DNA from: Rhizoclosmatium globosum
Taxonomy: Eukaryota; Chytridiomycota; Chytridiomycetes; Chytridiales; Chytriomycetaceae
DNA: 64,000 nt
Direction of reading: 5' to 3'
NCBI GenBank assembly: GCA_002104985.1
Contig: MCGO01000012.1
Span: 62,001 to 126,000, forward strand
Position numbers and translations under genes: made by a program. Positions 4,053 to 61,540 of this stretch are shown here, piece after piece. How positions within the stretch are numbered: position 1 is the stretch's first letter; each line of letters opens with the position of its first letter. A model generated the notes under the pieces. That model worked only from the letters and a program-made list of their open reading frames with translations, did no database searches and was not told the DNA's origin.

Positions 4053-4149
4053 CCTCACCTTGTAGTTAAAACCCCGCTCACAAACATAAATAGATAAATA
4101 AGATATAACCTCTTCTTTACTTCAAAATAATAAACAGCTATACAATTCC

Positions 4150-33635: not shown

Positions 33636-33652
33636 CCTCAATTTATCTCCAC
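33636..33652 (+). promoter_or_regulatory. family promoter element CCTCAATTTATCTCCAC
   Basis: The sequence lies about 30 bp upstream of the MSFQQ start at 33681. It matches the elements in front of the other family members in its AATTTATCTCCA core. A partial second half (AGCCCTCCAATTATT) lies just upstream at 33621-33635. Confidence 0.55.
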
Positions 33653-33680: not shown

Positions 33681-34306
33681 ATGTCCTTCCAACAGATAAC
33701 CGTGTTCAACGGCAGCACGTGCGCCGCCGGGACCGCCAGCTTTTGGAGTAGCCGTGTCGATTCCGATCGCAACCAGCAACAAAGCCACGTGCGCATCTGT
33801 CGTTGGCGGCGGCGTCGCGTGCAAGTCGATTGGCGGCACAATTCCAATCTTGAGCGAGTCGCGTTCGTGCGGCGCCGGCGAATTCGAGCTCGTCCAAGCG
33901 ATCGGCGGCCGCGTGCTCACCGCCACCGTCTACACCGACTCGGACTGCGCGGCACAGCTCGAAGTCGCGGCCGTTGCCCTGGACAAGTGTACTGCGCTTT
34001 CTGTGCCTGGTGCGAGTCAAGCCATCTTTTGACGACCGTATGCTCAGTTGTGAGCAAGAACCAGTCGGTGAGCACTCCTGCAAAGCTTGCTCAGTGCGAG
34101 GCCCAGCCACCGGCAAAGTACGGCGTTTGTACAAAAGTTGTTCCAGAGTGTGTGGCTGCATTTCAGCAAAGTACAGCGGTGTGAGTGTGGGAAGCTTCAA
34201 ATACATGGAAGTTTCTCAAGTCATTACTCCTCCCACTAGCAAGAGCTCGGCTATGACTGTTGGAATCTTTGCTCTTGGTGGCTTAGCTGCCTTCGTTTTC
34301 TTTTGA
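33681..34306 (+). pseudogene. ten-cysteine MSFQQ family member, frameshifted
   Basis: It begins MSFQQITVFNGSTCAAGT like its intact relatives. After SF the frame shifts by one base at a TTTT run (relatives have TTT-GG), and the family sequence continues in another frame (GVAVSIPIATSNKATCASVV, then ACKSIGG, DSDCAAQ, LDKCTAL). It shifts again near 34015 (SVVSKNQSVSTPAKLAQCE) and once more at a CAAAG run near 34168 before the tail SVGSFKYMEVSQ and a hydrophobic end GIFALGGLAAFVFF. Base composition is more GC-rich than in relatives (third-position G/C in the first half). It looks like a divergent copy with at least three frame breaks, true or technical. Confidence 0.7.
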
Positions 34307-43366: not shown

Positions 43367-43387
43367 GCCCCCCAATTTATCTCCATT
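43367..43387 (+). promoter_or_regulatory. family promoter element with GCCCCCCAATTTATCTCC core
   Basis: This is the best copy of the shared element. It lies 71 bp upstream of the ATG at 43459, followed by a TATA-like TTTAAAAA at 43401. The opposite-strand member at 46094 has an almost identical core, and weaker matches lie before the other family members. Confidence 0.65.
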
Positions 43388-43458: not shown

Positions 43459-44097
43459 ATGTCTTTCCAACAGCTCGCCGTCTTCTCTGGCAGCACTTGT
43501 TCCGTCGGCTCTGCCACTTTCGGTGTCGCTGCGTCTGTACCAGCCCTCACCAACAACCAGGCCAGTTGCTCTTCCCTCGTCGGCTCTGGAGTCCCATGCA
43601 AGGCCGTTGGAACCTTCAGCGAATCCCTCGTCTGCTCCAACGGTGCTCAAGACCTCCTGAATTTAATGTCTGGCTCAGTCTTAACAATCAGTATCTACGC
43701 CGACGCCGCCTGCGGCAGCCCAATTGAAACCGCCGCTACCGTTTTGGACAAGTGTATCTCTCTGTCTTCTTCAGGAAACAATTTCAACGCTATTTTCACC
43801 TCCAAGAATGGTACCTTTGGAGCCACTTTGTACGACGATTCCGCGTGCAAGGTTGTGAGCAAGGATCAGTCGACAAGCACTCCAGCGACTCTTCCTCAGT
43901 GCCAGGGACAGGCGGCGCCAGCTGTTGGTCAGTGTGCAAAGATCCCTGCTGACTGTGTCGCTGCGTTCTCAAGCAAGTACAATGGTATTAGTGTTGGAAG
44001 CTTCAAGTATGACCAAATTGTTGCGACAGCCAAGAGCAGTGCTTTCGCTGTTGGATTTTCATTCGCTGCGGGTGTGGCGGCTCTTTTCTTGTTTTGA
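43459..44097 (+). CDS. ten-cysteine MSFQQ family protein, 212 aa
   Basis: Intronless, starting MSFQQLAVFSGSTCSVGSAT. Ten cysteines are kept in all intact members; they occur in STCSVG, ASCSSL, VPCKAVG, LVCSNGAQDL, AACGSPI, LDKCISL, DSACKVVSKDQS, PQCQGQ, GQCAKI and ADCVAA. A repeated signature follows: NGISVGSFKYDQIV, then a hydrophobic C-terminal tail GFSFAAGVAALFLF that ends at the last residue. There is no N-terminal signal peptide. Even-numbered, fully conserved cysteines suggest disulfides and an oxidising place, while the tail suggests tail-anchoring or a GPI-like signal. Function unknown. Good match to members at 44328, 46094 and 61474. Confidence 0.75.
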   Translation: MSFQQLAVFSGSTCSVGSATFGVAASVPALTNNQASCSSLVGSGVPCKAVGTFSESLVCSNGAQDLLNLMSGSVLTISIYADAACGSPIETAATVLDKCISLSSSGNNFNAIFTSKNGTFGATLYDDSACKVVSKDQSTSTPATLPQCQGQAAPAVGQCAKIPADCVAAFSSKYNGISVGSFKYDQIVATAKSSAFAVGFSFAAGVAALFLF

Positions 44098-44327
44098 TTC
44101 GTGTGTTTAGAAACTATCAATACATCAAGTATACGTTTAGAATTACTTCTTTCTAATGTTTGCATGGACTTGGTAACGTTAAAGCTGTTGGATTTGTAAT
44201 CATGAGCTTAAAGATCAAGTCATAGCCAAAAGTTACTATTCAACAGCCAGTCCAACGTAAGTCTGGCTGCCAACTCCGGGGGGGTGATCCACTGCAGCCT
44301 TCAATTTAAAAATTTCCAATCCAAAAA

Positions 44328-44978
44328 ATGTCTTTCCAACAGTACGCCGCCTACACTTGGGACACCTGCCCTACCGGCAGTGCCGTCTACGGAGTCACTA
44401 CCAGCATTGCAGCCATTCTTGGCACTCAAATCAGCTGCGCTTCGGAAATCAACCACCTCACATGCGCATACGCCGGATCTTTCTATGAATCCGATATATG
44501 CTCCAATGGCGCCAAAGACCTCGTGAATCAAATGACTGGACCAGTTGTCACATTCACACTATACTCCAACGCCGTCTGTGGATCTCCAGTCCAAACTGTT
44601 GCTGCTGTCGTGGACAGGTGTATCTCGTTGGTGGAGACTGTGTTTCTCAAAGTTACTTTCAACGCAAAGTTTACAATCTCTAGCACCGGAAATTTTGGAG
44701 TTACGCTTTATGACGATGGTGGGTGCAAGATTCCAAGCAAGAAACAAACTCCGACATTTCCAAGGGCTTTGCCTGGGTGTAGTGAACAAGAGTCGTCTGT
44801 CATTGGCCAGTGTGGAAAAGTATCTGCGAAATGTATGGTATCTGGTTCAATCTGGTTCAATCATGGTAGCTTGGGAAGCTTTAAGTATCAGCAACTTGTT
44901 ACTCAAGTGGCCAAAAACAGTGCTTTGAGTGTCGGAATCTCATTGTTTACTTTTGTTGCAGCTCTTCTTGTATTTTGA
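44328..44978 (+). CDS. ten-cysteine MSFQQ family protein, 216 aa
   Basis: Intronless, starting MSFQQYAAYTWDTCPTGSAV. It keeps the ten cysteines (DTCPTG, ISCASE, LTCAYA, DICSNGAKDL, AVCGSPV, VDRCISL, GGCKIPSKKQ, PGCSEQ, GQCGKV, AKCMVS) and the signature LGSFKYQQLV. The tail is hydrophobic (GISLFTFVAALLVF). It is more diverged than its neighbour and replaces SAC-KVVS with GGC-KIPS. Its promoter has only a weak version of the shared element (GCCTTCAATTTA near 44292). It lies 230 bp downstream of the previous member, in the same direction, so tandem duplication is likely. Confidence 0.7.
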   Translation: MSFQQYAAYTWDTCPTGSAVYGVTTSIAAILGTQISCASEINHLTCAYAGSFYESDICSNGAKDLVNQMTGPVVTFTLYSNAVCGSPVQTVAAVVDRCISLVETVFLKVTFNAKFTISSTGNFGVTLYDDGGCKIPSKKQTPTFPRALPGCSEQESSVIGQCGKVSAKCMVSGSIWFNHGSLGSFKYQQLVTQVAKNSALSVGISLFTFVAALLVF

Positions 44979-45446
44979 TTGTTTTGTTCTGGAAACTGGA
45001 AAATATACCTTTAGAATTGATTTTTCAACTTGAAGGTTAGCGCCCTTGGTGACAATCTCGGAAGCGCCTCTTCTGTTCACTTAAATACAGTGAAGTTACA
45101 ATTGAAGGCTACCATGCAGTGAATGTTTGGTCTCTTCAGATATCGGGACCTATTTCAACACTTCCACTATATCTCTATGAACGGCATGGAGTAGACAGCT
45201 GCGGTGTTAACAACAGCATCTTTGCCGCTTTACCCCAATTTATTTGAAACCTTTATTCAGTTGCATTTTCATATCATAACTGATTTCCCATGCAACAATC
45301 ACAGCCTCGGTAGATAAAGAGTTGGTCGTGTTAAACATTTTAGATTTCAAAAAAAAAAAAGCGACCTTGGAGTAAGCCACTTAATAGAGAGTTCACTCTA
45401 ATCTGCTGAATATATTTGTTTTCCATAATTAAAACCATAGAAAGAA
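44979..45446. other. intergenic; orphan promoter element and A-tract
   Basis: No gene is supported. An orphan family-type element, TACCCCAATTTATTTG, lies at 45231-45246 with the 12-mer GACAGCTGCGGT just before it, as upstream of the 43459 gene, but no coding copy follows. A run of about twelve A lies at 45349-45360. Confidence 0.5.
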
Positions 45447-46094
45447 TCAAATTAAGAGAAGAGCCGCCACACCAGCAACGAATGAAATTCCAACACCCAA
45501 AGCACTGCTTTTCGTAGCTGGAACAGCAACAACCTGCTCATACTTAAAGCTTCCCAAACTAACACCATTGTACCTGCTCGCAAACGCAGCCATACATTCA
45601 GTAGGGATCTTTGCACACTGACCCAAAGCTGGGGCAACCTGTCCCTCACACTGAGGAAGAGTCGCTGGAGTGTTCGTTGACTGATCCTTGCTTGCAACCT
45701 TACACGCTGAATCGTCATACAAAGTAGAATCGACAGTTCCGTTCTTAGATGTCGTGACAATAGCATTGAAGCTGGTTCCTCCAGCGGAGATGGAGATACA
45801 CTTGTCCAATACGGCGGCGGCGGTTTCGACTGGGGATCCACAGGCAGCGTCGGAGTAGATGTTGATTGTGAAAACTGGGCCTGACATCAGTTTCAGGAGG
45901 TCTTGGGCGCCATTGGAACACGCGACGGTTTCACTGAATGTTCCGACGGATTTACATGCGATGCCAGAGCCGACGAGGGAGGAGCAAGAGGACTTGTTAT
46001 TGGTGAGAGCTGGGACGGAGGCGGTGACTCCAAAGGTGGCAGAGCCGACAGCGCAGGTGTTGCCAGGGAAGATGGTAAATTGTTGGAAAGACAT
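45447..46094 (-). CDS. ten-cysteine MSFQQ family protein, 215 aa
   Basis: Intronless, with ATG at 46094 (MSFQQFTIFPGNTCAVGSAT). The upstream in-frame extension is not used because it runs through the promoter element. All ten cysteines are present (NTCAVG, SSCSSL, IACKSVG, VACSNGAQDL, AACGSPV, LDKCISI, SACKVASKDQS, PQCEGQ, GQCAKI, TECMAA), then VSLGSFKYEQVV and a hydrophobic tail GISFVAGVAALLLI. It is inverted relative to the 43459 and 44328 members. It is most like the 43459 member. Function unknown. Confidence 0.75.
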   Translation of the reverse strand: MSFQQFTIFPGNTCAVGSATFGVTASVPALTNNKSSCSSLVGSGIACKSVGTFSETVACSNGAQDLLKLMSGPVFTINIYSDAACGSPVETAAAVLDKCISISAGGTSFNAIVTTSKNGTVDSTLYDDSACKVASKDQSTNTPATLPQCEGQVAPALGQCAKIPTECMAAFASRYNGVSLGSFKYEQVVAVPATKSSALGVGISFVAGVAALLLI

Positions 46095-46140
46095 TTTTTG
46101 GTGAGATACGTTGGATTGGTTGTGATAAGGAGTATCAAGT

Positions 46141-46173
46141 GTTTTATACCTGAATGGAGATAAATTGGGGGGC
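46141..46173 (-). promoter_or_regulatory. family promoter element plus TATA-like box
   Basis: On the minus strand the element GCCCCCCAATTTATCTCCATT-like core lies at 46153-46173, then a TATA-like GGTATAAAAC at 46141-46150, then the ATG at 46094. Spacing of element, TATA and start is close to that of the 43459 gene (71 and 58 bp from element to ATG). Confidence 0.65.
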
Positions 46174-46578
46174 TGGTGGCGTGTTTTGTCGGACCTTGCC
46201 GCTAATTCTTTGTTGAAAAGCGCAAAGTTCAGTTGAACTTTTGTAATCAAAATGATGCGCACTTGCGGAAAACGTATTGGACTCTCATGGAAACCGGCAA
46301 TTTTCGCCAGCCACAAGCCAGCCACTTTTCAACCTCTCTCCAAATAATCAATGAAAGGGATTAAACAAGTTGAGAAGAAACTATGCGTGGCGATTTTCTT
46401 TTTCTTCTTCTTTCTGCGGTAACCGATTTGGTTCATCCGAGTTATTGCACAGGGTTCAGAAGTCCATACCACAATCACAAAAAAGAATCGGTGCTCAAGT
46501 AATATCAAACTAATTCTAAATAATACAACAAACATTATTTGTTTAAAAATCAAATTCTCTTTAACTAACCAAAAATCC
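46174..46578. other. intergenic, nothing recognised
   Basis: About 400 bp upstream of the family gene and downstream of the ankyrin gene. Only short frames; an AAGAAGAAAGAAAAAG-like purine run near 46405 is the only notable feature. Confidence 0.5.
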
Positions 46579-48323
46579 TTATTCCTGCTTCATATTCGCG
46601 ACATAAACCAATAACTCGTCATCTGTTGCATCCAAATCCCACGTCACCCTTCCAACAAAGCACTCGTGCCGCAATAACTCCCGAGCAACTTCGAATTGCA
46701 ATACAAGACATGTTGTATACACTACTTGCTGTGTAGGCTTTATACGCTTGTCTTCCAATAACGTCTTTACAACATCCATTTTACCACTGTGGCAAGCATA
46801 TGTAAGAGCCCGGCATTCGCCATCAAACGTAAACGGATCCACGCGACTATCTGACAAGAGAAGTTTGATAATTGGTATATTTCCGGCCTCGATGGCGAGG
46901 AGTAATGCTGCCAGGCCCCCGATATGAAGTGTGTGATCATAGTGGTCATTTTCAAGAAATTCCTGCAATCGAGAAGTATCTAATTCAATAACAGATTGAA
47001 GTAATTCAAGGATTGGGTGTGTTGTTGAAGAGTAACGCGTGAGAATGAGATTGATGATGTCTTGACGTCGCTCATCAACAGCGTTGGTGACAACTAGATA
47101 CTCGTGGGATTCAATGTTGACGCGCCCATCTTCAATGAGAAGTTCTACAATATTCCAGTTCCCAAATCTTACACTGTCAATAAGATTTGCGTTGTCAAAA
47201 GCAGTTGGATCTGAAGAGCCTTCCTGAAGGAGGAACTCGACTACCTCCTCTTGACCGTGTTCACAAGCTAAAGCCAGCGCGCTGCTATCACTATCAGATA
47301 ACGTTACGCGCGGATCCTTGGCAAGAAATTGAACAATTTCCAGGTATCCGTTTTGTGCTGCAAGACGAACTGGAGAATTATTGAGTACGGATGGATCAGT
47401 ACGAGGATCTTGAAGGAGTCTTTCGAGGAGAGACAGGTGTCCGTGGTTGCAGCAAACACGGATGGCATTGTTGTTGTTGAATGATGGATCAACTTTGCCT
47501 GTGTTGAGAAGGGCATCCATAATTTCCACGTTCCCAACCGTACAAGTACGAACGAGAGGGTAGTTGTCTGAGCAAGCCGGGTTGACGCGGGGGTCAGCAA
47601 GAAGAAGCTTGACGACTTCCGTGCGGCTAAAGTCACAAGCATATTGCAAAGCGATATCTGACGGCAAGAATGAGTAAATGCATCTTCAATTGTGTGTATT
47701 CTACCATCTTCTGCGGTTGGATCGACCCTTGCATCTGCCAAGAGCAGTTTGACGACTTCTAGTTCCCCAGTTTCACTTGCACACTTGATAGCGTAGTTAT
47801 CGTCGTCGGCAGGATCCACGCCAGGCAATAGCGTCAAACGCTTTACAACATTCAAGTAGCCCGCGCGTGCAGCCCATCTGAATGCTCTGTTCTGCTGCAG
47901 CGTCAAGTCAATGTTGTGATCGAGTAAGACATTGAACGTAATCTCCGCCATTTCCGGATTCATTCTCCACCGTTCAAAGAACATTCTGTTTGTATCGACG
48001 GTGGTGTCATCATCGTCTGCGTGGGGCCAAGGCGGGGCTGCAAGCAGAATGGCAAGGACGGCCGCACGCACCGCCGTCGGAAGATCCCGGAACGCCGACC
48101 CGCGAAGCCCGAGCCCGTCGCACGTGTCCCACACTTTGTCGCCGGTTCCAGGAAGAAGATGCCGCCGAACAAGATCGCAACCACAGCCAAACGACAACAG
48201 CGCCCGCCCAAACACCGCCTTGGACACGCTGGCCAGTGTCCGCAGCTGCTTGGCTTCAAGAGGCATCCATCCGAGGATCTGCTGTATGAGCTCAGGAGGG
48301 AGGTCGTAGATGGTTACTCCCAT
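46579..48323 (-). CDS. F-box-like plus ankyrin-repeat protein, 565 aa
   Basis: Two exons: 47705-48323 and 46579-47657, with a 47-nt intron (GTAGAA donor, GTCAG acceptor). The N-terminus MGVTIYDLPPELIQQILGWM is F-box-like (L-P-P-E-L-x-x-x-I-L). From about residue 145 come ankyrin repeats of about 33 residues with the local form D-N-Y-A-I-K-x-A-S-E-T-G-x-L-E-V-V-K-L-L-L-A-D-x-R-V-D-P (consensus ALAxAxxxGHxEVVxLLL), ten or more in all. The F-box plus ankyrin layout suggests an SCF substrate receptor. Without the intron the frame would appear split at 47304 and 47667. Its start codon is 18 bp from that of the opposite gene. Confidence 0.8.
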
Positions 48324-48341
48324 TTTAATCTATCTTTTTTG
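48324..48341. promoter_or_regulatory. 18-bp gap between divergent start codons
   Basis: Only 18 bp (T-rich on the plus strand) separate the ATGs of the ankyrin gene and the F-box/LRR gene. If both starts are right, the two 5' UTRs overlap the opposite coding regions. Confidence 0.5.
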
Positions 48342-49103
48342 ATGCAATCATCCCTGGCACTCCCTCCAGAACTGCTCAATGCAATCATTGCGTATCTGCC
48401 TCAGGAATCTGTAAAGTGTCTGCGCCTGGTGAATCGCCTGTGGCTTTCGGCTGCAACCACTGCCCTATTCAGATCCTGGCATCCATCAACCATCACCGCA
48501 GTCGAGTCTATGGTCGAGGAACGGCCAAGCCAGCATTTACCCTCTTGGAAACCTGCTTCAGCCGCTATGCCAACATCTGGCACCACTGCTCCTCATTCGC
48601 ATAAACTACATCCGATTGAATGCATAGCTTCCATGAACCTCGCGAGCCTCCAAGGTTTTAAAAGCAAAATCAACGATACCTTCCTTTCCCGTTTCGTAAA
48701 CCAACGGCTCTATTATTCTCAACAACATTTGAGTCAATCTTCGCACACTAGTTTGGTCCGCATCAATTTGACAAATTGTTTTTCCATCTCGGACTCCTCG
48801 TTTCTTGCTCTGATTGATTCAAATACCTTGTTGCGTGAAATTATTATCTGTGGGTGTACTGGATTAACTGATACCTCTTTGATTCGCATCTCCCAAGTCT
48901 GCACAGAGCTTGTACAGCTGGACATAAGTCTCTGTCGGTTCACCACAAATGCAATGAACCATTTACTTGTGCAGTATTCTGAAAGAAAACTGAGCAATAT
49001 TGTGTGTATTGGGATGCCAGTTGTTGACTGGTCACAAATATCATCCTCCAACAAAATCAAGTTGTCAACTCGAGAAGGAACTGAGACGGGCCAGAACGTG
49101 TAA
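48342..49103 (+). CDS. F-box/LRR protein, 253 aa
   Basis: Starts MQSSLALPPELLNAIIAYLP; LALPPELLNAII followed by KCLRLVNRLWLSAATTALFR is a good F-box. Leucine-rich repeats follow (LVRINLTNCFSISDSSFLAL, LREIIICGCTGLTDTSLIRI, LVQLDISLCRFTTNAMNHLL), of the cysteine-containing (AMN1/GRR1-like) type. It should serve as an SCF adaptor. A longer in-frame reading goes upstream to 48021 but lies antisense to the ankyrin gene and is not believed. Intronless. Confidence 0.7.
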   Translation: MQSSLALPPELLNAIIAYLPQESVKCLRLVNRLWLSAATTALFRSWHPSTITAVESMVEERPSQHLPSWKPASAAMPTSGTTAPHSHKLHPIECIASMNLASLQGFKSKINDTFLSRFVNQRLYYSQQHLSQSSHTSLVRINLTNCFSISDSSFLALIDSNTLLREIIICGCTGLTDTSLIRISQVCTELVQLDISLCRFTTNAMNHLLVQYSERKLSNIVCIGMPVVDWSQISSSNKIKLSTREGTETGQNV

Positions 49104-49240
49104 AATAAAGACAAACATTGTAACACATTCAAAAATCGAAAAACAATACCATCCCGCCATTGTTTGTCGCAAACCAACAACATAAAAGGCAATCTCCGAC
49201 GACGCGCTGAAACCTGTCAAAAAGTTTTTCAACTCCGACA

Positions 49241-51168
49241 ATGACTTCTCCTCTCGTCCTCGCGACATGTACACCGGGTACAAGCGGGTCTTTCGTTCTC
49301 ATTCCAACCCCAACCGCGTCTCAGAATGGATGGGGTGTTCCCGTCTTGCTCGCTGCATACCGCCAAGCCAATCCAAAGTATAACTGCTGGCTCTCGGCGA
49401 ATCCATGGCTCAAACCTGTAGACTGGTCCAGTGGAATCATGTGTGGAGCCGTAAACAACGGGACATGTCCATCTAATTCAACTATCGCTGATGATTTGGT
49501 AGGTGGTTTTCATGTGGGGGACGGGTTTCCTGTCAATCCATAACCTCAAAATTATCCTTCACCCTAGACACCCTTTATTTCCTCCTACGGAAAGCCTCTA
49601 ACAATCTCGTTGGACCTTAATACCACAAAAGTCGCGTCATGGGATGGTTTCGGGACGGGCCTTGCGTGGTGGGGTCAGATGGTTGGGAACTCTTCGTTCG
49701 AGGCTTTGCATACGTCCTTGTATTATTCAACTACCCCAACCATCTCGGTTAACGTTGTTCCGACACCAGCCGCTGCGGGATTAGCTGCTCCGGCTGCATA
49801 TACTACGAGTGTTCCTGGACTTGGGTTCAACATTGTGCGCTATAACATCGGAGGTACCGGTGCCAAGACAGATGCTCCTGGAGTGGAGCAATATTCTCAA
49901 AGAAATGCTACCACTGGGGTTGAATCAGCATCTTTCACGCCAGACGAAAAGACGTGGTGGTATTTGACGCCAGGTACGTGGTCTTTCCTTATTGACTTCG
50001 TATGAGCTTAACCGCACAAAATCAAAGGTTTTTGGATCAAGAACGATTCAACGGCGTGGGATTGGTCGCGTGACTTTAACCAGCGGTCGCTTTTGAAATC
50101 CATTTACAACTCCAATATCCCAAATGTGTGGATTGAATTCTTCTCTGGAGCTCCAATGTGGTGGATGACGGATGCCAACAGCAGCTTAGGCGGTAAGCGC
50201 GGTCTTATTTTTATCTCCAACTATGATTCACAATTGAAACAGGCAATCTGTTGCCAAATATGACTTCCCTATTTCCCTACTACGTCGCCAAAGTCGTTAA
50301 TCAATCCATCGCCGACTGGAAAATAAACGTCAGCTCCGTCGAAATCCTGAATGAACCATCAGGCGGCTGGTGGAACTTCCCCAACGCCCAAGAAGGCATG
50401 AACGTCAAGAACTCCACCCTCAGGCTCCAACTCTTGAACAGTCTCCGGAAGAGTCTCAACCAAACCTTTAACCTGAAAAACGTCAATATTTCAGGCTGCG
50501 ATGAAAACAGCCCTGTGTATGCAATCTGGAACGACTTGGAAAATGTGTTGGCGACTGTTGATAAATTCAATATTCACTCGTACAACAATAATGACGCCTT
50601 GCGTGGCCTGTTGAGCAGCAAGGTTCCGCCTACAAAGCCGTTTTGGCAGTCTGAATATGGAGACGGCGACCAGTTGGGTATCACACTTGGTTACACGATC
50701 GCACATGATATCAATATTATGAACATTCGTGCGTGGATGAACTGGCAAGTTGTTGATCAAGGAGGTTGGGGGGCAGTCTTTATTGTTCCTGGTGTGAATA
50801 GTACGGATCCAGGACGTGGACAGATTACCAAAATCAATCCAAAGTATCACATTGTTGGACAGTATTCGAGATATATTCGTCCCAAGGATGTGATTCTTGG
50901 TAGCACTGACTCCTCAAACACTGTTGTTGCATTTGATGGTTCAAAATACAAGATAATTGTAGGAAATTACGCCAGCCAACGTCCTGTTACTCTTAACTTG
51001 ACAAGTATTGCTGTCAAGAGGGGTGTTCCGTACTTAACGGGTCCTTTGTTATACTCATTCACGAGCCCTACCAACGGAAGTTTCTCTGTGACAGGAAGTT
51101 TGAATGTTACAAACAATCTCGTTAATTTCGCTGCAGATGCATTTGCAGTATATTCCGTCATTGTTTGA
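49241..51168 (+). CDS. GH30-like glycoside hydrolase (endo-beta-1,6-galactanase-like), 584 aa
   Basis: Four exons: 49241-49498, 49568-49973, 50028-50192, 50243-51168. Residues 1-86 are a unique N-terminal region (MTSPLVLATCTPGTSGSF). Then comes the GH30-type (beta/alpha)8 domain: WDGFGTGLAWWGQMVGN, VPGLGFNIVRYNIGGTG, SGAPMWWMTD, VEILNEPSGGWWNF (acid/base Glu in ILNEP) and FWQSEYGDGDQLG (nucleophile Glu in WQSEYG). A beta-rich C-terminal region follows (VGQYSRYIRPKDVILGSTD, SSNTVVAFDG), ending AVYSVIV. Such enzymes cut beta-1,6-galactan or related wall glycans. No signal peptide is seen, and no upstream exon was found, so secretion is unproved. It is paralogous to the gene at 53265. Confidence 0.8.
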
Positions 51169-51254
51169 GATGGTTTTTTTTTTCAAAACAAAACGGATCT
51201 CTTTTTATTCTTGAAATAACTCAAATATATCTAATGCCCAAGATCAAATAATCC

Positions 51255-51545
51255 TCAATAGTAAAAATCTTCCTCCATTTTGCTGACTATATTACGGGCC
51301 AAAGCATGCTGAAGCGCAAATAGTATACGACGATAAACAACAGCTACCGACACAGATTCTCGAATAACTTCCCGCTGCATCATCAAGCCACGCAACTTTT
51401 CTAAAAACTGTATAGAGCTCTTGCCTAACCCACCAGTAGTATCCAATACAAAGGGGACAAACTCTAGACCAATAGACTGACAACCCGACAAATACTTTTC
51501 ATTCTTTGATGGTTTTTGTTTCTCAGTTATCCTTCTTTTTAAGGC
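51255..51545 (-). mobile_element. reverse-transcriptase C-terminal remnant
   Basis: A minus-strand frame reads EKYLSGCQSIGLEFVPFVLD, then TTGGLGKSSIQFLEKLRGLM and LFALQHALARNI. The pattern F-x-P-F-V-x-x-T-T-G-G followed by helices is typical of the C-terminal tail of non-LTR retroelement reverse transcriptases (family knowledge, not searched here). No catalytic domain is present. It lies between the GH30 gene and the monooxygenase gene. Confidence 0.4.
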
Positions 51546-51604
51546 AATAAATTACGAAACGAACTTTTATTGCAACTATTTACCGAAATCAAACGATAAT
51601 GATA

Positions 51605-53063
51605 CTACTTCAATTGAATGCCTGGAACAGCGGCACGCACATCATCACGGAAATCATGGAACAAAACCTCATCATCCTTGCCCAAAAACTCCTTAATGTT
51701 GATGACAGTTCTCATCATAAACCTAGCGATAACTTGTTGGGGGTAGCTGGAAACCATCATTCTGGACATTGTCTGTCGCGCAACTGCCGAAGTCATTCGA
51801 GTGCGTGGGATACGAATCTGGTCATATACTTCGAACGCTTTTGTATACTCAGTGTCTTGGAAATGACCCATCAAGTCACCCAAAACTCCGCCATCCTCCA
51901 AAGCCTGGTTCAAACCTTGTCCGTACAAAGGAACTGTTCCGTGCGCGGCATCACCGACAAGAACAACACGTCCCTTGTAAAAAGTCGGCATATCCGCAAG
52001 ATCATACAAGTTGACTGGGTTGATTCTCTTGGCTCTTCTAATTCCTTCAACAACGCCTGGCACTGCTCCCCACGATTGAAGGAGGTCTCCAAGCTTCTCC
52101 GCCTCTTTTGGAAGATCAGTCACTGGACGCCAGTCGTCACCACCCTCCAACGGCTGCGATTTATCCAGAAGGTAGATTTTGACATCTCCCTCTGTCTTTC
52201 CCACACGAGATGTGAAAATGAATCGGTGGTTCAAGGGATCACTGTAGATTCCAGCGTGGTGGTTGAAAAAGCCAATGTCCGTTCCATCTGGGTTAACAAC
52301 GTCGCAGACGGTAGCGTATCCAGTTCCACGAACAACAGCGGAGGGAACTTCTGGGAAAACGAGGCGACGCACTTTGGAGTTGATTCCGTCGGCGCCAACC
52401 ACAAAATCCACGACCGCAACTGTTCCATCCACAAACTCAAGAGTCACGTCCTCGGTAGTTTGGGTTACGGATTGGAGCTTCTTGCCTCCATACACGTTGA
52501 TTCCCATATCGTGTGCCGCCTTCATCAATACAGTCTGAAGCTTTCCACGCATGATGTGAATGGATTGCTCCTTCTCCGCCTTGTGGGTATTACGAGTTAT
52601 ACGGTCCTGATTTGTAATGTCAGTGACCCAATTTAAAACAGTGTCATCAGATGTGCCCCAAGTCCACTCACCGATCCGTCAAACAGCATCAAGTTCAGTT
52701 CCAAGATTGGATCGTTGTGGTTCTCGGCAAAGTAGTCCCACAGGCCGAGGTGCTTGATCACTTTAACGCCGTTGCCTGAGATCGAGAAGCCTCCGCCATC
52801 TTGACTGAACGCAACGGATACGGACTCGTCTCGTTTAATGGCTGCGAGTACATCTTCTACGACGGTGACTTTGTCATAGAGAGTTGGCTGTGGTGAAGGG
52901 GACGTAGTCAGTCTCAGATAAGCGTCAGAAGACGATGCAGTTATGGATTGCTTAAGTTCTTGCAAGGAAGAATGAATCTCACCTCAAAGCCTTGTCTCTT
53001 GAGTGCAATGGCAGTGATGGCTCCCGCTGGTCCAGCTCCAATGACAGCAACTCGCTTTCCCAT
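51605..53063 (-). CDS. FAD-dependent monooxygenase (salicylate hydroxylase-like), 432 aa
   Basis: Three exons: 52983-53063, 52672-52887, 51605-52606. The N-terminus MGKRVAVIGAGPAGAITAIA is a GxGxxG FAD-binding fold. Later come VVGADGINSKVRRLVFP (the DG motif) and RVVLVGDAAHGTVPLYGQGL (GD motif contacting FAD ribose), the three hallmarks of class A flavin monooxygenases (PF01494). It likely hydroxylates an aromatic or similar compound with NAD(P)H; the substrate is unknown. No signal or membrane anchor was noted at the C-terminus. It lies between two GH30 genes, on the opposite strand, close to a retroelement remnant. Intact. Confidence 0.88.
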
Positions 53064-53264
53064 ATTGAATTGGTTTGAAAATTGTGGGGAATGGATGTTT
53101 TGCGTTTTCTTTCCTAATTTATGTAAACGAGGGATCGAGGAGAACAATTGTATTCCTATCGCCGAGTCCAGGTTCATCAACAATCAGAGAAGTAGGTCTC
53201 GGCTCTGACAATATGAAGAAAAATGAGAGATCGTCATTTTGCACCTGTCAAAAATAGCCGCGAC

Positions 53265-55149
53265 ATGACATCTCCGCTCTACCTCAGCTCCTGCTTTACT
53301 GGGTCGAACGGAAACTACACGCTGTCGCCTACACCCAACAATGCGTGGACTTTACCAACTTTGCTGGCCGCGTATCGTCAAGCTAATCCATGGTATAATT
53401 GCTGGTCCTCTATTCAATTTAACGGAACAAGTGTCATCGCGTGCGGTCTCGTAAATGGAGGTTGTCCCAATAACTTTGTTATTGAGAATAGTATGGTGAG
53501 CTTATCGTCATAAAAAACTTGTCATTGACTTCTTAAAAAGTCACCCTTCGTCGCATCCAGCCAACCCCTCACCATCACATTCGACGTGATATCGCCACCA
53601 AAAATCGCGAAATGGGAAGGTTTTGGCACGAGTTTGGCGTGGTGGGCTGTCGCGGTTGGTAAAAATGGGTTGGACCAGCAGTACGCGAACCTCTTTTACA
53701 CGTTGAACGACAGTGTATCTGCGGCGTATGCAAATTCAGGACCTGGATCGTTGCCTGGTCTCGGATTTAGTATCACGCGGTACAATATTGGAGGAACGGG
53801 CATTCCTGAAGATAGTGTACCGCCAAACAACGTCGAAATGTATTATGATGGCGACGGAAGCACAGTTGGGCGAAATACGACGGATAAATCCGCGTGGTAC
53901 AAATTGGTTCCTGGTACGAGTATTGACTTCGTACGTGAATACTGTTTTGAATGCATTTTAATTCAAATAGGGTTCTGGGCTAAGAACGATCCAAATGCAT
54001 GGTTTTGGGGTCGTGATCCCAACCAATGGGCTATATTCGCAGCTATTAGAGCAGCCAATCCGAGCACTCTGGTGGAACTCTTTTCAAATGCTCCAATGTG
54101 GTGGATGACTGATGTGAAAAGCAGTATGGGAGGTGAGTTCATATTCCTCTTAACTTTTTTGATCCTGATTTGTGAGTAGGAAACCTTTTGCCTGAAATGA
54201 ACTCGGTGTTCATATCATATGTTGCAAATGTCACAGCTTACTTTGTAAAAAATCTTACTGTCCCAATTCGTTCAGTCGAAATTTTGAACGAGCCTTCTGC
54301 TGGATGGTGGAACTTCTCAATTACGAGCCAAGAAGGACTGAATGCGAATATTACGCAGCAACAAAGTCTATTGACTGGTTTACGGAACAACTTAACAAAT
54401 GCCTTACCTGATGTATGGGTTTCTGGAACCGACGAAAATAATCCAGATACGGCTAAAACCAATTTGGCTTCTATTTTGCCCCTCGTGCAACAGTATAATG
54501 TGCACAGTTATTGGAATCTAGACCAACGCAGAATTGATCTGAAGGCAAAACTTGGAAACAAACCATTCTGGATGACGGAGTACGGAGGTGAAACGGCTTT
54601 ATCTGTTTACTCAAACTCTATTTTGGCTTGCTCATTTTTAAATCGACAGATGGCGATTCGACCGGCGTCACGCTCGGCTACACCATTGCTCATGACATTA
54701 ACTTGATGAGACCGTCTGCGTGGATCAACTGGCAAGTAATTGATCCTGCGTGGGGTCTGATGACAGTCAATATGGGACAGACGATTACCCGTGGAAAGGT
54801 CAAACAAGTCAACCCAAAATACTATGTCATGGCTCAGTACTCGCGTTTCATTCGACCGAATGATAAAATTCTGAGTAGCTCTGATGTATCAAATACTGTG
54901 GTTGCTTTCGACGGGACTAGTTACAAGATTGTCGTTGGAAACTATGCGTCGCAAAGAAATATTACGTTGGACTTACGTACCATTGCAACTGCGAGGGGCA
55001 AAGCTATTACGGGACCTCTGAATACCACATATACGAGCCCTCTTTTCAACAAATTCTTCCAACCTATGTCATGCAATGTGACTGGAAATACTGTGACGTT
55101 CTCAGCAGACGCGTTTGCCGTATATTCTTTCCAAATTCCACCGTCTTAG
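53265..55149 (+). CDS. GH30-like glycoside hydrolase, 557 aa
   Basis: Five exons: 53265-53495, 53541-53913, 53971-54132, 54180-54587, 54650-55149. The N-terminus MTSPLYLSSCFTGSNGNY parallels the 49241 gene; a possible in-frame ATG 14 codons upstream (53223) is not preferred. Core motifs: WEGFGTSLAWWAVAVGK, LPGLGFSITRYNIGGTG, NAPMWWMTD, VEILNEPSAGWWNF (acid/base), FWMTEYGG (nucleophile). The C-terminal beta-rich part ends AVYSFQIPPS. An extra intron in this copy splits the nucleophile region just after TEYGG. About 50 percent of residues look shared with the paralogue by eye. No signal peptide is visible. Intact. Confidence 0.82.
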
Positions 55150-55241
55150 TTAAACATTATTCCGTATTTTATTCTATTCTAGTTATCTTTGATGAAAAAG
55201 AAACAAAGAGAGACATCTTTTTTCACCGTTTCAGGCTTACT

Positions 55242-56890
55242 TTATTCTTCACTAGAAGCACGCATCTGTTGGATGGCAAGCTCCATTTTCTTTCGTGGAC
55301 CGAGTTGTTTCATGCCTAACTCATTGCGCAAGTCGTTCCCAGTCAACGTTACGAGAACAGAGCCGTCAATCGCTTGATCAACAAACGTTTTAGCGAGTTC
55401 GTCAGATCCTCCCATTGTTAGAACCCATTCAGCGACTTGGTCGACATTCCACGACGTCGGTGAGTTGCTTTTTAATTTGGTTGTTATAGCCTCGGGAAGA
55501 TTTAGAGTTTCGTCGGAAGGTGACGTGGGTTCGTATGACAGAGCGGTGTATTCTGGAGGCGAGTGAATCGTGAGGATTTCGTCTGCATCGGTAAAGTCCA
55601 TGTTTCCGTGTGGAATAGAGGGAGTCAAGGGAAGCGGCGTTGGTGGTGAAACTACAATGTCAGGTACCGGTAAAGATGATGAGTACAATCGAGGAAGGAC
55701 GGTGATTGGGATTTCTTTTACAACTGGAACGAGTGAGTTATTAGAGTAAAACTTTTGAAAAACACTTACTGTTAGGCTCTTGAGCATTGTCGAGAGTCAT
55801 TGTCAGACGCAGGTACGTTTTGCTTATTATCAGAGGCGATTCAAACGTGAGCAGAGCAGTATCTGAATCAACGTTGAGAGAGAATCGCATGGTAGTATTA
55901 AACGACGTTGAAGAATCGTCAAATCTTTCCACGATTTCACTAATAGGACTTGGAAATGTAGCTCGATGGGCAAATCCAGCGTTATTATAATACGCGACTA
56001 TTGGTGTCAATGTAAGGTGGACCTCTCGTAATCGTGTTCCAATCGGCGTGGAATGAATCTGAAGATTCACATTCAATGCATCGCCAACGTAGACAACCAG
56101 TGTTGGAATCGTGAGTGAGTAATATATTCTATCAGTTGTTTCTTGACCCGTATGAGTCAGCTGCCTTAAATGACGTGTCATTTGCAACTTTGCTGAATCG
56201 GGCATGTGAATTCTGACTGGCACAACCAATTCTCTTGATTTGTTGATGAAGGAGAAGCCAGTTGAGAAGGTTAAGGTGCATTTTATGAAGTAATAGATAG
56301 CACCACTAACGGAGTAGAACGAGGGAGGCAGGTCAGTCATTGGTAAGTCAAAGCTGAATGGAATCAATGTGGAAGAGCCACCCTTTTAAAAACGTGTTGT
56401 TAGGCTTGACGAACTATTGTGTTGGCGACTTACCGGACTTGGGTCTAAGACTGCTTCATCAAAGATTACAGCGGCTAGATGATGAAAAGTCCGAACAGCG
56501 TGGGTTATAGGATAGTTTTTGGACGAAGGATGTGATGCCAAACGACTGCGATTGTCCCAATATGTTTCAACGACCCCTTTAAACTCAATCCGAATCTTGG
56601 GAGATAAAAGCCTTTCGTTACTTTGAAGTTCCACTTGTGCCTAATCGTTCAAAAGTTCAAGTCAGTAAGTTGTCATAGATTTTGATTTGAACCTCAAGTG
56701 TGGACTCAGTGCCCCAGCCAGCGTATGCGACAATGTCACCTTCAGATGATAGATTTAAGCCAATTCCTGATAGACTATTGGTTTGTTTAGCGTTAGTGTG
56801 AATGAAGGAGGGCCAGACTGAAAGAAGAGGGCACTGAGAGGCTCTGGAGGCTGAACTCCACAAATCAATCTTAAACTTCCTTCACCACGG
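55242..56890 (-). CDS. arrestin-like protein with C-terminal SAM domain (5' end uncertain)
   Basis: Exons read: a first one above 56693, then 56434-56640, 55770-56382, 55242-55723. Arrestin-type beta strands: GVQPPEPLSALFFQSGPPSF, LSSEGDIVAYAGWGTESTLE, RIEFKGVVETYWDN, SFDLPMTDLPPSFYSVSG, IYYFIKCTLTF. The last exon has a linker with SYEPTSPSD and a SAM domain: SWNVDQVAEWVLTMGGSDEL, FVDQAIDGSVLVTLTGNDLR, GMKQLGPRKKMELAIQQM. Arrestin-related proteins recruit ubiquitin ligases or sort membrane receptors; SAM makes protein-protein contacts. One frame break in the first arrestin exon (near 56770) would be cured by one more G in CAGGA. The first coding exon was not fixed. Confidence 0.75.
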
Positions 56891-57234
56891 TTTTGCTGTT
56901 AATTTCATATGCTAATGCTTACTTGAAAGTCTGTATACTCATGGGGAAAGCCGGTGTATGTTATTGATTGTTTGTTTTTTGGATACCTTTCAATGAAATC
57001 AAGGAAAACGTGGAAACCACGTTGCCTTCGAAAACGTGGACGAAGTGCGCAACAGCTGGAGAGATCTAATATATGAAAAATGCAGTATACGATCTCGGAT
57101 TGAATCTGGAGAACTTCCGTTCATGAAGGAGAAGGCAATGTGACGATCTTGATTAACGGTAGTGTTTAATTGAATACACGCTCTAGTATGCAACTCGTTT
57201 TGATTGGTTTTCACGTTTCGGACTTCAACAAAAA

Positions 57235-59435
57235 ATGTTGACGACAGGACAAGTTGGGTCTGTGGGGTCGCTCAAGGGATCGCCGGTCGCCACGCGTTTA
57301 CGACGAGCACAAAGTATTATTGTTGGAGAGAAGCGCGAGGCACCAAGTAGGGATGAGTCAGAGGAGGACGAGGAGGACGATGGTTCGTAGTTCATTCAAG
57401 TTGTTTGACAGGTTACAGTACCGAATCAAACAAAACCCAAACAGAGTACGGCCTTGTCAACGCGTTAAAGCGAACAAAGATCAGTGCATTAAAAGCCGGT
57501 GCGTGTCCTCAGTCGCAGTGTTTCCTCACGAAACAAACTAACTGAAGCAACTCAGTTCCAGTCGCCCACAAACACCCTCAGACAAAACGCGTCCGCCTCC
57601 AAAAGACCGCCACGGCTCTCGGCGCCGAATCCAGCGACGACGACCTCGACGCCGCATCCGCAAATCAGAAACGACTCGGACGACAAGATTCAAACGCGCC
57701 GGCGAATCACTTTGCCGACGATGCTGCGAGTGACTGTAATTAGACTGCATTCATCACACTTGGTTCTGCTTCTCTGATATTCTTGTTCAGACTGGCCCAG
57801 CGACTCGGACGATAAAACTGCAACTTCACACGCAGCCTCAGCCCTCCGAAGAACTCAAAGAGCACAGGCTGTTGTAACTCGAATGGCTGCATTCTTTTCT
57901 CAGACAATGCCAACTGCCTCCAGAGCCCTGTTTGATCCCTCCTCAGGCCTGCCATTCCATGTTGTGGCGCGGTTGAGGAAGTGGGTTGGACCTGAAGATG
58001 AGGTCGATGAATCTTATGGCTTTGGGAAGCTTGATAATAGGACTCAACCACTTCCAAAGAAGAAGAGCAGATGGAGTGAAAAGGGTCCTGTTGTTCTCAT
58101 GATTTTGCCTTGTTCAGAAGAGAGGCCTTGGGAAGCACGCGTTGTTGCTCATTACACTTTTGGTATTCAAACTGCCGCCGTGAATATGCCAAGTAAGTTT
58201 CGACCTCTTTGTTACCTTGACTTATTCCTTTAACAGTAAGTGACGTTCATGCATCGTATCTCCGCCAACTGACTCCAAAGAAGCTGATCCTTTCTTCGTT
58301 AGGCCAAAACATTCAAGCACATGCAATCATTTCTTCGCAGCCTCGTAGAATCCATGACTTTCTTTCAAATGTATCCCAGCATGATCTCAAAGTGTTGAAG
58401 AATATGCCAAAATCAGGGGACGCTAAACACTCAGAGCTCACTATGGCAGTTGCAGAACGACTGGAAGCCGTAAGTCTCGACGCCAACCAAATGCCTCGCC
58501 GAATTGCCACCATCTCGAAATCTACTCGTGCGGCAGCATCCATAGCCGCTTCCGCCAGCCGTGCGCGTGAATCTAAAAACGAAGACTCTGGAAACGAATC
58601 TAGTGATACCAGTGGACGTGTCACCCCTGAACCGAAATCTGATGCCGCCAAAGGGAAAGGAAGAAAAATGCGTGACCCAGTCGCAATGAACCCTGACTTT
58701 ATTCTCGAATGCAAAAGTACAATAGTTCCCATCAAGGAGGATTCCTCCAGCGTCTTTATGTTTGCGTTTGATCAAAAGAATGGTTCGTTCCTGTTCAAAA
58801 TCAACATTTCTACTTCGTAACCTAATTCCACAATAGACTGTACCGCGTTTACATCCCGCTTCTTGAAAGCCGTGACAGATTACTCTGCCTACCTAACCGA
58901 AAAAAGAACCTCCACATTTGTCACACCTCAACTCGTGAAACGCGTCTTGCTCTCTGGTCAAACCGTCCTCCTCCCAGGATCAACCCTCTGCAGCACATCC
59001 CCTTTTGCTCACGAGCCCCTCCTCGCAAGACAGGTAAACCACTCAAGTTTTACAATCAGTTTTGTTTTTATGAACACATTTCGAAACAAGATTGCAGAAA
59101 CGGGACTCATGTACCTCCCAACACTTACACCCGACAACCAAGTCCAACACCGGTTGGTGTGTACGCATTGTCACGCTGCGTTGGCGGTTTGTACGGCGTC
59201 GACTTGTGCGCCTGGATTTGAAGCTGTGTGTAGCGCGCATGCGGGACATAGCTTTGCGAAGAGGGGTGGAGAGGTTGTTGGGAAAGGGAAGAAGGCTGCT
59301 GTCGCTGATGCGCGTGGGGCTGTGTATTGGTGTGTTTATGCGTTGAAGTGGGTCGGTGCTGGTGGGTCTGGTGGGTTGGAGGGATGTGTTGGGAATATGG
59401 GAAAGAAAGGGTGGGATCTTGTTGTGGTGAATTAG
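57235..59435 (+). CDS. unknown protein, multi-exon, with Cys pairs near the C-terminus
   Basis: Exons 57235-57382, 57556-57729, 57791-58192, 58237-58782, 58837-59033 and a last one after about 59100. It starts MLTTGQVGSVGSLKG with an acidic stretch (DESEEDEEDD). A conserved-looking block follows: VVARLRKWVGPEDEVDESYG, KSRWSEKGPVVLMILPCSEE, RPWEARVVAHYTFGIQTAAV, VHASYLRQLTPKKLILSSLG. Then a helix-rich region with Ala and Ser. The last part has LVCTHCHAALAVC and CSAHAGHSF, a possible metal-binding Cys/His cluster. The final exon needs one extra base at the CAG/GTAAAC junction to stay in frame. Intron 1 is 173 nt, longer than usual. Family not recognised. Confidence 0.6.
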
Positions 59436-59965
59436 AATCATGGAGTGAGGGCAGCTTTTTACTTCTTTATTTTCTTTTTGTCGTTTCTTACTTAATATCA
59501 AGTTCGTTGATACTTCAGAATGGATTTTATTCTGCGGGAAATTGGTGGGTTTTTGAAGTGGTGCCTTGATAGACAGAGGTTATGGAGTCGGGGGTACAGG
59601 ACTAACACGGGATTAGAATATTGGAAAGAAGTTCTTACAAGTTTATTTGGGTATTACTTGAGGGCTCACCGTTACCCAGTGTCTCGGTTGCACAAACTGG
59701 CTTCCCATAGTAGGACCCGTAAGGTTTGTGTGGGATTATTGTCATAAATTTCCTGATAAATTTCCTGTCAAGCAAAGGAGTTAATTTATTTCTTTTCTTC
59801 CAATCAACTCGGAAATTCTGTTAGAAAACTTATGAGCGAATAGAACGTGTATAATGTTGTGTTTCACGTCAAACAAGTCAAATTAAAAGCAAAGCGGTCA
59901 AACAGGAAACCAATGAAAGTCCCATTCTGAGGAAACCGCTCTTTTTATCATTCGCTACGATTTGT
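59436..59965. other. intergenic, holds the detached tail of a family copy
   Basis: No independent gene is supported; a 75-codon plus frame (59520-59747) starts with ATG but has no recognised features. Toward 59880-59960 the minus strand carries SVRSLKYEQIV and a hydrophobic end SLVSCLTALLLI, the tail of the truncated family copy. Confidence 0.4.
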
Positions 59966-60268
59966 TCATACTTCAAGCTTCTGACACTGACTCGATTGAG
60001 TGTGGAGAACTCCACAGGCAACGTCGAAATAGACACTGATGGCGAGAACTGGACCCGTCGTAAGTTTGATTAGGTCGAGGTAGCCGCTGGAGCAGGAGAG
60101 TGATTCACTAAAATTTCCAAAGGCCTTGCAATTTACGCCAGAGCCGACGACGGAGGAACATGTGGACAGACCGTTAGTGAGAGCTGAGATGGACGTGGTC
60201 AGTCCGAACGTGGCGGATCCGGGAGCGCAAGTGGTGCCAGAGTAAAGTGTAAGGTGTTGGAAGGACAT
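59880..60268 (-). pseudogene. ten-cysteine family copy with internal deletion
   Basis: It begins MSFQHLTLYSGTTCAPGSAT and keeps the first five cysteines (TTCAPG, STCSSVV, VNCKAFG, LSCSSG, VACG). After VACG the sequence jumps to VLHTQSSQCQKLEV and a stop at 59966. In another frame the family tail SVRSLKYEQIV and SLVSCLTALLLI remain. The central 70-80 residues with five cysteines are lost. The promoter keeps AGCCCCAATTT and a TATA-like GGTATAAATA. The neighbouring intact copy lies 0.5 kb away in the same direction. Confidence 0.65.
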
Positions 60269-60295
60269 TTTGAGTGCGGTTGAGAGGAAGTGGGT

Positions 60296-60325
60296 GGATA
60301 TTTATACCCGAAATTGGGGCTAAGC
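60296..60325 (-). promoter_or_regulatory. partial family promoter element plus TATA-like box
   Basis: Minus strand reads TAGCCCCAATTT at 60313-60325 followed by CGGGTATAAATA. The ATCTCCA half of the element is missing, matching the decayed gene downstream. Confidence 0.5.
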
Positions 60326-60775
60326 TTTCAGTCATCATGTGCGGCAATGTAGATAAGAAAGAAGAAAAAGGCAGTGACATAGCTCTCAGGTTATAAAGAA
60401 GGCAAATCAAGTCCGGCTATCATTGCGAAAGCAAGCTGGAAGTGAGGGTGTCGGGCGAAAGCGTTCGTTATCTTTTCTTGGCGGAATTTTAAGCTCAATT
60501 ACTTTCGTTGACATAAGTTACACAATTACTGGACGAGTCTGCTTCTTCCTAAATATTTCTTCGTTTCTTCACTGTGGACTCTGGCAGAAATTTGAGCATA
60601 GGTTGGTTCTCGTCGGACTGAACCGCACAATCAATCATTTCCCTCACCATTTACGTTTGGATCGTACGCCTCTAACCGCTGGCACTTAATTGGGTATAGC
60701 ACTTATAAGGTCATGTTTAATATTTCAATGTTATACGAACTTGTACCACGGAACAAATCAAAAACTAAGAACAAA

Positions 60776-61474
60776 TCAAAACAAAAACATTGCGGCCAAG
60801 CCAGAAACCAAAGAAAGTCCAACTGCACTAGCAGAACTGCTCTTAGTAGTCTGGACACCGGTCTGAGCACCCGCAGTTGGTTCCACCGCAGTAATTTGGT
60901 CAACAACTCGATCATACTTGAAGCTCCCCACCATAACGCCGTTGAGCTGGGACGACATTGCAGAAACACATACCGCAGGGATCTTGGCACACTGCCCCAA
61001 AGCAGGAGTAATCTGCCCCTCACATTGAGGGATGGTAAGCGAAGAAGCTGGGGCCTGGTTCTTGCTTACAACCTTGCATGCGCTGTCATCGTACATTGTA
61101 GTACCAACAGTTCCATCTCTCAAAACCGTAAACATAGTGTTAACACCGGCAGAACTGGCTGATCCTGCGATACTAATACACTTATCCAAAACTGCGGCGG
61201 CGGTTTGGAGAGTAGTTCCACAGTTGGTGTCTGTGTAAATGGTAATCGTAAAGGCTGGTCCTGAGATGAGCTTTGTGAGGTCTTGGGCACCGTTAGAGCA
61301 GAGGAGGGATTCGCTGACGGTTCCAAACGCTTTACATCTCACACCAGAACCTACGACGGTGGAACATGTGGACTTGCCGTTGGTGAGGGCTGAGACAGAA
61401 GAGGTAGTTCCAAAGATGGCAGATCCAGGAGCGCATGTGGTGCCAGAGTAAAGTGTAAGTTGTTGGAAAGACAT
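60776..61474 (-). CDS. ten-cysteine MSFQQ family protein, 232 aa
   Basis: Intronless, starting MSFQQLTLYSGTTCAPGSAI. All ten cysteines are present (TTCAPG, STCSTVV, VRCKAFG, LLCSNGAQDL, TNCGTTL, LDKCISI, SACKVVSKNQA, PQCEGQ, GQCAKI, AVCVSA), then VMVGSFKYDRVVDQ. A 15-residue insert (AVEPTAGAQTGVQTTKSSS) precedes the hydrophobic tail VGLSLVSGLAAMFLF, making this the longest member. It is most like the truncated copy at 60268. No signal peptide. Function unknown. Confidence 0.75.
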   Translation of the reverse strand: MSFQQLTLYSGTTCAPGSAIFGTTSSVSALTNGKSTCSTVVGSGVRCKAFGTVSESLLCSNGAQDLTKLISGPAFTITIYTDTNCGTTLQTAAAVLDKCISIAGSASSAGVNTMFTVLRDGTVGTTMYDDSACKVVSKNQAPASSLTIPQCEGQITPALGQCAKIPAVCVSAMSSQLNGVMVGSFKYDRVVDQITAVEPTAGAQTGVQTTKSSSASAVGLSLVSGLAAMFLF

Positions 61475-61540
61475 TTTGAGTGAAGTTGTGAAGATGAGGG
61501 GAAATGGGGTGAGTCAAATTTATAGCTGATTTGTCTGAAA

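Follow-up and report, generated by a model that had tools for sequence, protein, structure and literature searches.

A ten-cysteine gene family in a 64-kb window

A 64-kb stretch of the Rhizoclosmatium globosum genome (G000:C24:62001-126000, hereafter the window) contains six copies of a gene family whose products typically start with MSFQQ or MSFQH, carry ten cysteines and end in a hydrophobic segment. Genome searches covered 56.9 Mb. The family is tentatively read, at rather less than even confidence, as glycosylphosphatidylinositol (GPI)-type surface proteins that belong to a DUF3430-like superfamily and would enter the endoplasmic reticulum (ER) without an N-terminal signal, both topology and route being deduced from sequence features.

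Four intact copies, one internally deleted copy and one frameshifted copy were found, all at the positions given by the original prediction (Table 1). The copy previously described as truncated carries an internal deletion when compared with its intact C149 counterpart (217 amino acids (aa), L013:1103-1756) and with the database relative P0005. The frameshifted copy has an intact relative in P0006 of Rhizoclosmatium sp. JEL0117. The common MSFQQ/MSFQH start was confirmed with the start word ATGTCTTTCCARCA, which gave 10 window matches at up to two mismatches (1.57 expected by chance); the six matches with zero or one mismatch were the six family starts.

Table 1. Family copies and associated features, in window positions
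Feature	Position	Strand	Remarks
Frameshifted family copy	33681..34306	+	
Intact family gene	43459..44097	+	212 aa, ten cysteines, hydrophobic tail; start region undecided
Intact family gene	44328..44978	+	216 aa; counterpart in other haplotype (C149) disrupted
Intact family gene	45447..46094	-	215 aa; start region undecided
Internally deleted family copy	59878..60268 (open reading frame 59966-60268)	-	in-frame stop 36 nucleotides (nt) upstream without usable AG
Intact family gene	60776..61474	-	232 aa
In-frame TAA	44307..44309	+	21 nt before 44328 ATG, no usable AG between
In-frame TGA	61514..61516	-	42 nt before 61474 ATG, no usable AG between
Motif CCCCAATTTATCTCCA, one mismatch	33636..33651	+	upstream of family copy
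Motif CCCCAATTTATCTCCA	43370..43385	+	upstream of family gene
Motif CCCCAATTTATCTCCA	46155..46170	-	upstream of family gene

Start regions and upstream motif

Twenty-two start regions were inspected by locating the nearest in-frame upstream stop and then any AG between it and the ATG at which an in-frame exon could begin; AGs overlapping the stop were counted. Six of these regions (w44328, w60268, w61474, C149_k, C149_l and C113m) had an in-frame stop 21-45 nt upstream and no usable AG. They represent four loci (44328; 60268 with C149_k; 61474 with C149_l; and C113m) and cover both deep branches of the family. With no usable AG between the stop and the ATG, no canonical cis- or trans-spliced coding addition can occur at these loci. 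A canonical signal-peptide leader exon is absent at all four, two of which are intact window genes. By homology, the other loci are read as probably leaderless in the same way. The little room for a hidden first exon that had been noted originally was upheld for these six regions; the other 16 are considered below.

The maximum 10-residue hydropathy within residues 1-16 was -0.32 to 1.34 in 18 family proteins; three N-termini from this genome that looked signal-peptide-like by eye gave 2.27-2.84. The earlier claim that no N-terminal signal is visible was therefore borne out for these 18 proteins as read. Deposited models also start at the domain, reading MSFQQ in P0001-P0005, MSFEQ in P0010, MSELV in P0008, MSETI in P0009 and MRITV in P0006.

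Promoter elements directly upstream of the ATG had also been proposed. A shared motif, CCCCAATTTATCTCCA, was found 29-88 nt before the ATG in three of the six window copies, and the proposal is upheld for those three. At up to one mismatch it occurred at eight places in the genome, six of them upstream of family copies, and its reversed control at none. The two places outside the family were C113:431571 and C360:161139. Co-regulated genes were sought there, and the open reading frames (ORFs) of at least 60 aa at these places showed nothing related by eye.

Cysteines, motifs and predicted fold

Exactly ten cysteines were present in each of the four intact copies. Seven of the nine gaps between them were identical, one was 9-10 and one 31-35, so that the spacing previously called the same is nearly fixed. 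All ten were invariant in alignments of 14 (A1) and 18 (A2) rows, which take in relatives of 34-36% identity, and none formed a CxxC pair in the intact copies. Three Y/FxxxxC motifs were common to all four, ending at Cys 14, Cys 84-85 and Cys 130-133. The motif S-x-G-S-F-K-Y, thought to be shared by the copies, was present in three of the four; 61474 reads MVGSFKY.

An AlphaFold model of the family (18 sequences) was mostly strand, with a mean predicted local distance difference test (pLDDT) score of 76 and about 88 over residues 1-100. Residues 3-10 were placed in a strand with high confidence. The model gave no match to viral predicted structures at E≤0.001. A viral origin was also considered using one peptide pattern against viral contigs, which returned three stretches, none related.

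The C-terminal tail

Hydropathy over the last 18 residues was 1.68-2.49 in the 18 family proteins and the hydrophobic run reached the last residue, as predicted. Among the 70 window ORFs of at least 100 aa, six reached the family minimum of 1.68, four of them members of the family. A small-residue site precedes the tail (K192 and S193 in at least 90% of A1; S193 in A2). In a diverged gene pair on C113, the tail is preceded by a Gly/Ser-rich stalk.

The tail PATKSSALGVGISFVAGVAALLLI of 46094 resembles the tail PATTKSAAGVAVPFVAAAAALALLVL of a polysaccharide-deacetylase (PF01522) locus, L065, which was the closest to it among the tails listed. At L065 an exon reading MQLLFALAAFAALARADDKPP, signal-peptide-like, lies upstream, the exons having been joined to one gene by eye only. 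The family shares with fungal GPI-anchored proteins of this kind the T-K-S-small residues followed by a hydrophobic run to the last residue; it differs from L065 in that no signal-peptide exon is visible. Judged from its residues, the tail has the anatomy of a GPI signal. The N-terminal signal peptide that also characterises GPI-anchored proteins was not seen in the family proteins as read. A single membrane segment near the C-terminus without a leader is also the arrangement of tail-anchored proteins. Tail anchoring, export by an unusual route and GPI processing had all been suggested originally; the GPI-like tail fits the last of these.

Relation to PF11912 and DUF3430

The four window proteins had no Pfam match at E up to 10. 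Eleven family proteins were scanned; PF11912 (CfaA_B_C) was listed for three and its gathering cut-off of 28.6 bits was reached by none, the best being P0006 (E=1.1e-3, 19.4 bits). PF11912 corresponds to DUF3430, the domain of the Dictyostelium Bad bacteriolytic proteins, for which PMC7886984 describes eight or more conserved cysteines together with Y/FxxxxC motifs, reports that each published domain follows a signal peptide, and speculates on a Greek-key fold as in MiAMP1.

The window family has in common with the Bad and counting-factor-associated proteins at least eight conserved cysteines (here ten, invariant), repeated Y/FxxxxC motifs, a mostly strand structure and a multigene organisation. 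It differs in adding a C-terminal membrane-type tail and in having no visible signal peptide before the domain. Taken with the profile comparison given below, these features show the family to be, as far as sequence can tell, a remote relative of PF11912/DUF3430. The earlier view that it belonged to no described family was thus not sustained, though no scanned member reaches the Pfam cut-off. Among the literature matches listed, as titles and abstract starts with subscription papers mostly absent, neither the window family nor a leaderless GPI family is described.

A transmembrane family of the same genome

A PF11912 search of the genome gave three matches. One of these, L026, passes the cut-off (29.2 vs 28.6), and a search with it gave 50 matches, including fragments and likely alleles, on C212 (126-207, 265 and 411 kb), C27, C414, C159 and two further contigs, in arrays. 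The longest ORFs comprise a domain of about 320 aa resembling two modules, a stalk, a strong membrane segment, flanking basic residues and a tail that is 57-197 aa long. Using hhalign, residues 3-136 of the window family were aligned to positions 163-290 of this transmembrane family (E=3.5e-5, probability 71.6, score 41.3); scores in 60 column shuffles did not exceed 25.1 and the reversed profile scored 18.2. The transmembrane-family model was also mostly strand (mean pLDDT 85). Neither it nor the window-family model matched a solved structure at E≤0.001, a result that does not prove a new fold. The two families have in common a similar module, arrays and, in most models inspected, no visible leader. 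They differ in that the window proteins consist of a single module and stop with their hydrophobic segment, and the transmembrane family has what look like two modules and a cytosolic-type tail.

From 23 inspected loci, 22 ORFs were sampled and 14 aligned, with L027 and L040 started at an internal Met where the domain begins. On that reading, all 14 open on the first strand or a few residues ahead of it (e.g. MAAPKLTATIFFSDSSC and MSQLTATILFSDSAC). Hydropathy of residues 1-16 was 2.2-2.3 in two of the 14 (near-identical copies, within the strand) and 0.44-1.59 in the others. The missing leader thus seems to extend to the transmembrane family; the claim is weaker here because it rests mainly on ORF reading, with one of 14 starts decided. 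Cysteine density was 4.76 per 100 aa over 14 ectodomains but 0.41 over 12 tails. The C-terminal flank of the most hydrophobic segment was net positive in 11 of the 14 listed ORFs. Such a pattern is what an N-out/C-in orientation would lead one to expect.

N-glycosylation sequons were considered as a topology marker and dropped, as their ratios favour neither reading (seen/expected 0.92 in 18 family proteins, 0.99 in 11, 1.01 in the 14 transmembrane ectodomains and 0.62 in the 12 tails).

Proposed targeting and alternative explanations

In the proposed mechanism, small, disulfide-stabilised, mostly beta-strand proteins related to DUF3430/CfaA_B_C (Bad) would be shown outside the plasma membrane or on the wall. 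They would begin directly at the first strand of the domain, with no N-terminal signal peptide, and the C-terminal hydrophobic segment would be the sole ER-targeting signal. The cysteine-rich domain may be unfolded in the reducing cytosol and then pulled through the translocon; in the lumen about five disulfides would form and a GPI anchor would replace the tail close to the conserved K-S-S site. We infer the outward topology, the oxidised cysteines, the GPI processing and the role of the C-terminal segment. In the transmembrane sister family, a similar leaderless domain would precede a membrane segment of the ordinary kind, with the tail in the cytosol (N-out/C-in). By analogy with their Dictyostelium relatives, the proteins may serve in surface binding or adhesion, possibly to bacteria or to a substrate.

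The broader proposition is that two related families, tens of ORFs counting alleles, bring a large cysteine-rich N-terminal domain into the ER without an N-terminal signal, guided only by a membrane segment 190-340 residues in, and that one of them is GPI-processed without a leader. This is doubtful and is held with more reserve than the reading of the window family itself.

Several observations weigh against the reading of the window family. According to PMC8998515, a large luminal N-domain is typically delivered by an N-terminal signal, and EMC and GET handle short luminal parts only, so the proposed route would be unusual. Sixteen of the 22 start regions are undecided, including those of 43459 and 46094, two of the four intact window copies. 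In the second C113 gene (P0008), TTTCTTACAG lies nine nt ahead of the ATG and is a good-looking acceptor. Residues 1-40 of the family reach hydropathies of 0.88-2.07, nearer those of signal peptides. In the transmembrane family, the longer ORF of L040 has an upstream in-frame ATG and a hydrophobic stretch (2.50), as does an ORF in L044 (3.09), where a stop interrupts the stretch in the counterpart L045; L045 itself has a plausible acceptor. The start-region analysis excluded a leader exon in one of the 14 transmembrane-family starts (L035) and left 13 undecided. Sequons in the window family showed no enrichment (20 against an expected 20.3 for 11 proteins, and 31 against 33.9 for 18). The top Pfam match of P0006 was DUF4841 (PF16129; E=1.2e-4, residues 78-126) and not PF11912, although its 22.8 bits, like the 11.9-14.3 bits of three C113-type proteins, fell below the cut-off of 25 bits.

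In one rival explanation, an upstream exon, joined through a canonical acceptor where one is available and otherwise a non-canonical one, would supply a normal signal peptide in most members, and the 5' gene models would be wrong. Candidate AGs exist in all the undecided regions of both families, the acceptors at C113n and L045 look real, and a signal peptide of the same genome can occupy a short separate first exon, as judged by eye. Against this stand the exclusion of canonical splicing at the six decided regions and at L035, the deposited models that start at the domain, and the motif close to the ATG in half of the window copies. We regard this explanation as rather unlikely.

The proteins might instead be tail-anchored, with GET, SND or EMC inserting the C-terminal segment post-translationally and the cysteine-rich domain cytosolic and reduced. 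This would be the ordinary route for such a protein (PMC8998515), and it agrees with the hydrophobic segment at the extreme C-terminus, the absence of a visible leader and the lack of sequon enrichment. The ten invariant cysteines without CxxC pairs in the intact copies argue in the other direction, as do the secretory nature of the Dictyostelium DUF3430 proteins (PMC7886984), the charge pattern of an outward N-domain in the transmembrane family and the resemblance of the tail to that of L065, a locus with a signal-peptide exon. We judge tail anchoring unlikely. Tail-anchored proteins and type III (N-out, leaderless) proteins both resemble the window family in having no cleavable leader and a membrane segment that acts, or in the window family would act, as targeting signal. 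They differ from it in that the N-domain of the former stays cytosolic and that of the latter is very short on the luminal side (PMC8998515); the N-domain measures about 190 aa in the window family, and in the sister family about 330 aa.

Fungi possess unconventional secretion routes. Leaderless secretion that bypasses the ER, with the tail serving for membrane attachment only, would account for the missing leader; the ten fixed cysteines suggest an oxidising compartment and the tail has the anatomy of a GPI signal, and this explanation appears improbable.

Three outcomes compete: these proteins break the targeting rule, or their domain stays in the cytosol in a superfamily whose Dictyostelium members are secreted, or the gene models do not match the real transcripts. 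If the domain is extracellular, the family would be an exception to the working rule by which a large luminal N-domain requires an N-terminal signal, it would be overlooked when secretomes are counted from signal peptides, and DUF3430-like domains, known from the bacteriolytic Bad proteins of Dictyostelium, would extend to a chytrid fungus. If both families are leaderless, they would form a surface-protein class at a scale that present ER-targeting rules do not foresee. Since some paralogs have a cytosolic tail and others lack one, the targeting route would be open to direct testing.

Relatives, haplotypes and selection

The whole-genome search for the window family gave 36 matches, including a second array at C24:18-24 kb. 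Counterparts on C61 and C149 (dS, synonymous divergence, 0.01-0.11 in seven allelic pairs) look like the other haplotype. The named protein-database relatives all come from Rhizoclosmatium (sp. JEL0117, R. hyalinum and, for P0008, R. globosum). P0001 of JEL0117 is 98% identical to the 43459 protein, and P0008 is the diverged C113 copy (100% identity).

The ratio of nonsynonymous to synonymous rates (omega) was 0.19-0.46 in nine hand-chosen paralogous pairs and 0.07-0.30 in six of the seven allelic pairs; the seventh, which contains an allele with a frameshifted end, gave 0.93. Selection on the family is purifying. The haplotypes differ in their broken copies: 44328 is intact in the window and disrupted on C149, and 60268 is deleted in the window and intact on C149. 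The fast turnover proposed originally is supported by these differences and opposed by the purifying selection and by the five relatives that share a single contig in the close strain JEL0117. The broken copies and haplotype differences would also suit a decaying family with no defined location, in which an ancestor had lost the leader and its descendant copies now drift. With purifying selection in the nine paralogous and in six of the seven allelic pairs and ten cysteines invariant down to 34-36% identity, we give this very little credence.

In the C61 counterpart of the first C24 array gene (L010:6407-7072) the end is frameshifted and the hydrophobic tail absent. The diverged C113 tandem pair (L014:2507-3403 and 4015-4808) has one intron in each gene, which is absent from the window genes, and is flanked by ORFs that resemble Cu/Zn superoxide dismutases by eye. 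Two near-identical ORFs with signal-peptide-like starts, L015 and L016 on C262 and C412, are weak family matches (E ~1e-4). Within the window, the ORF at 39674-40498 (-) resembles an HNH-type endonuclease by eye.

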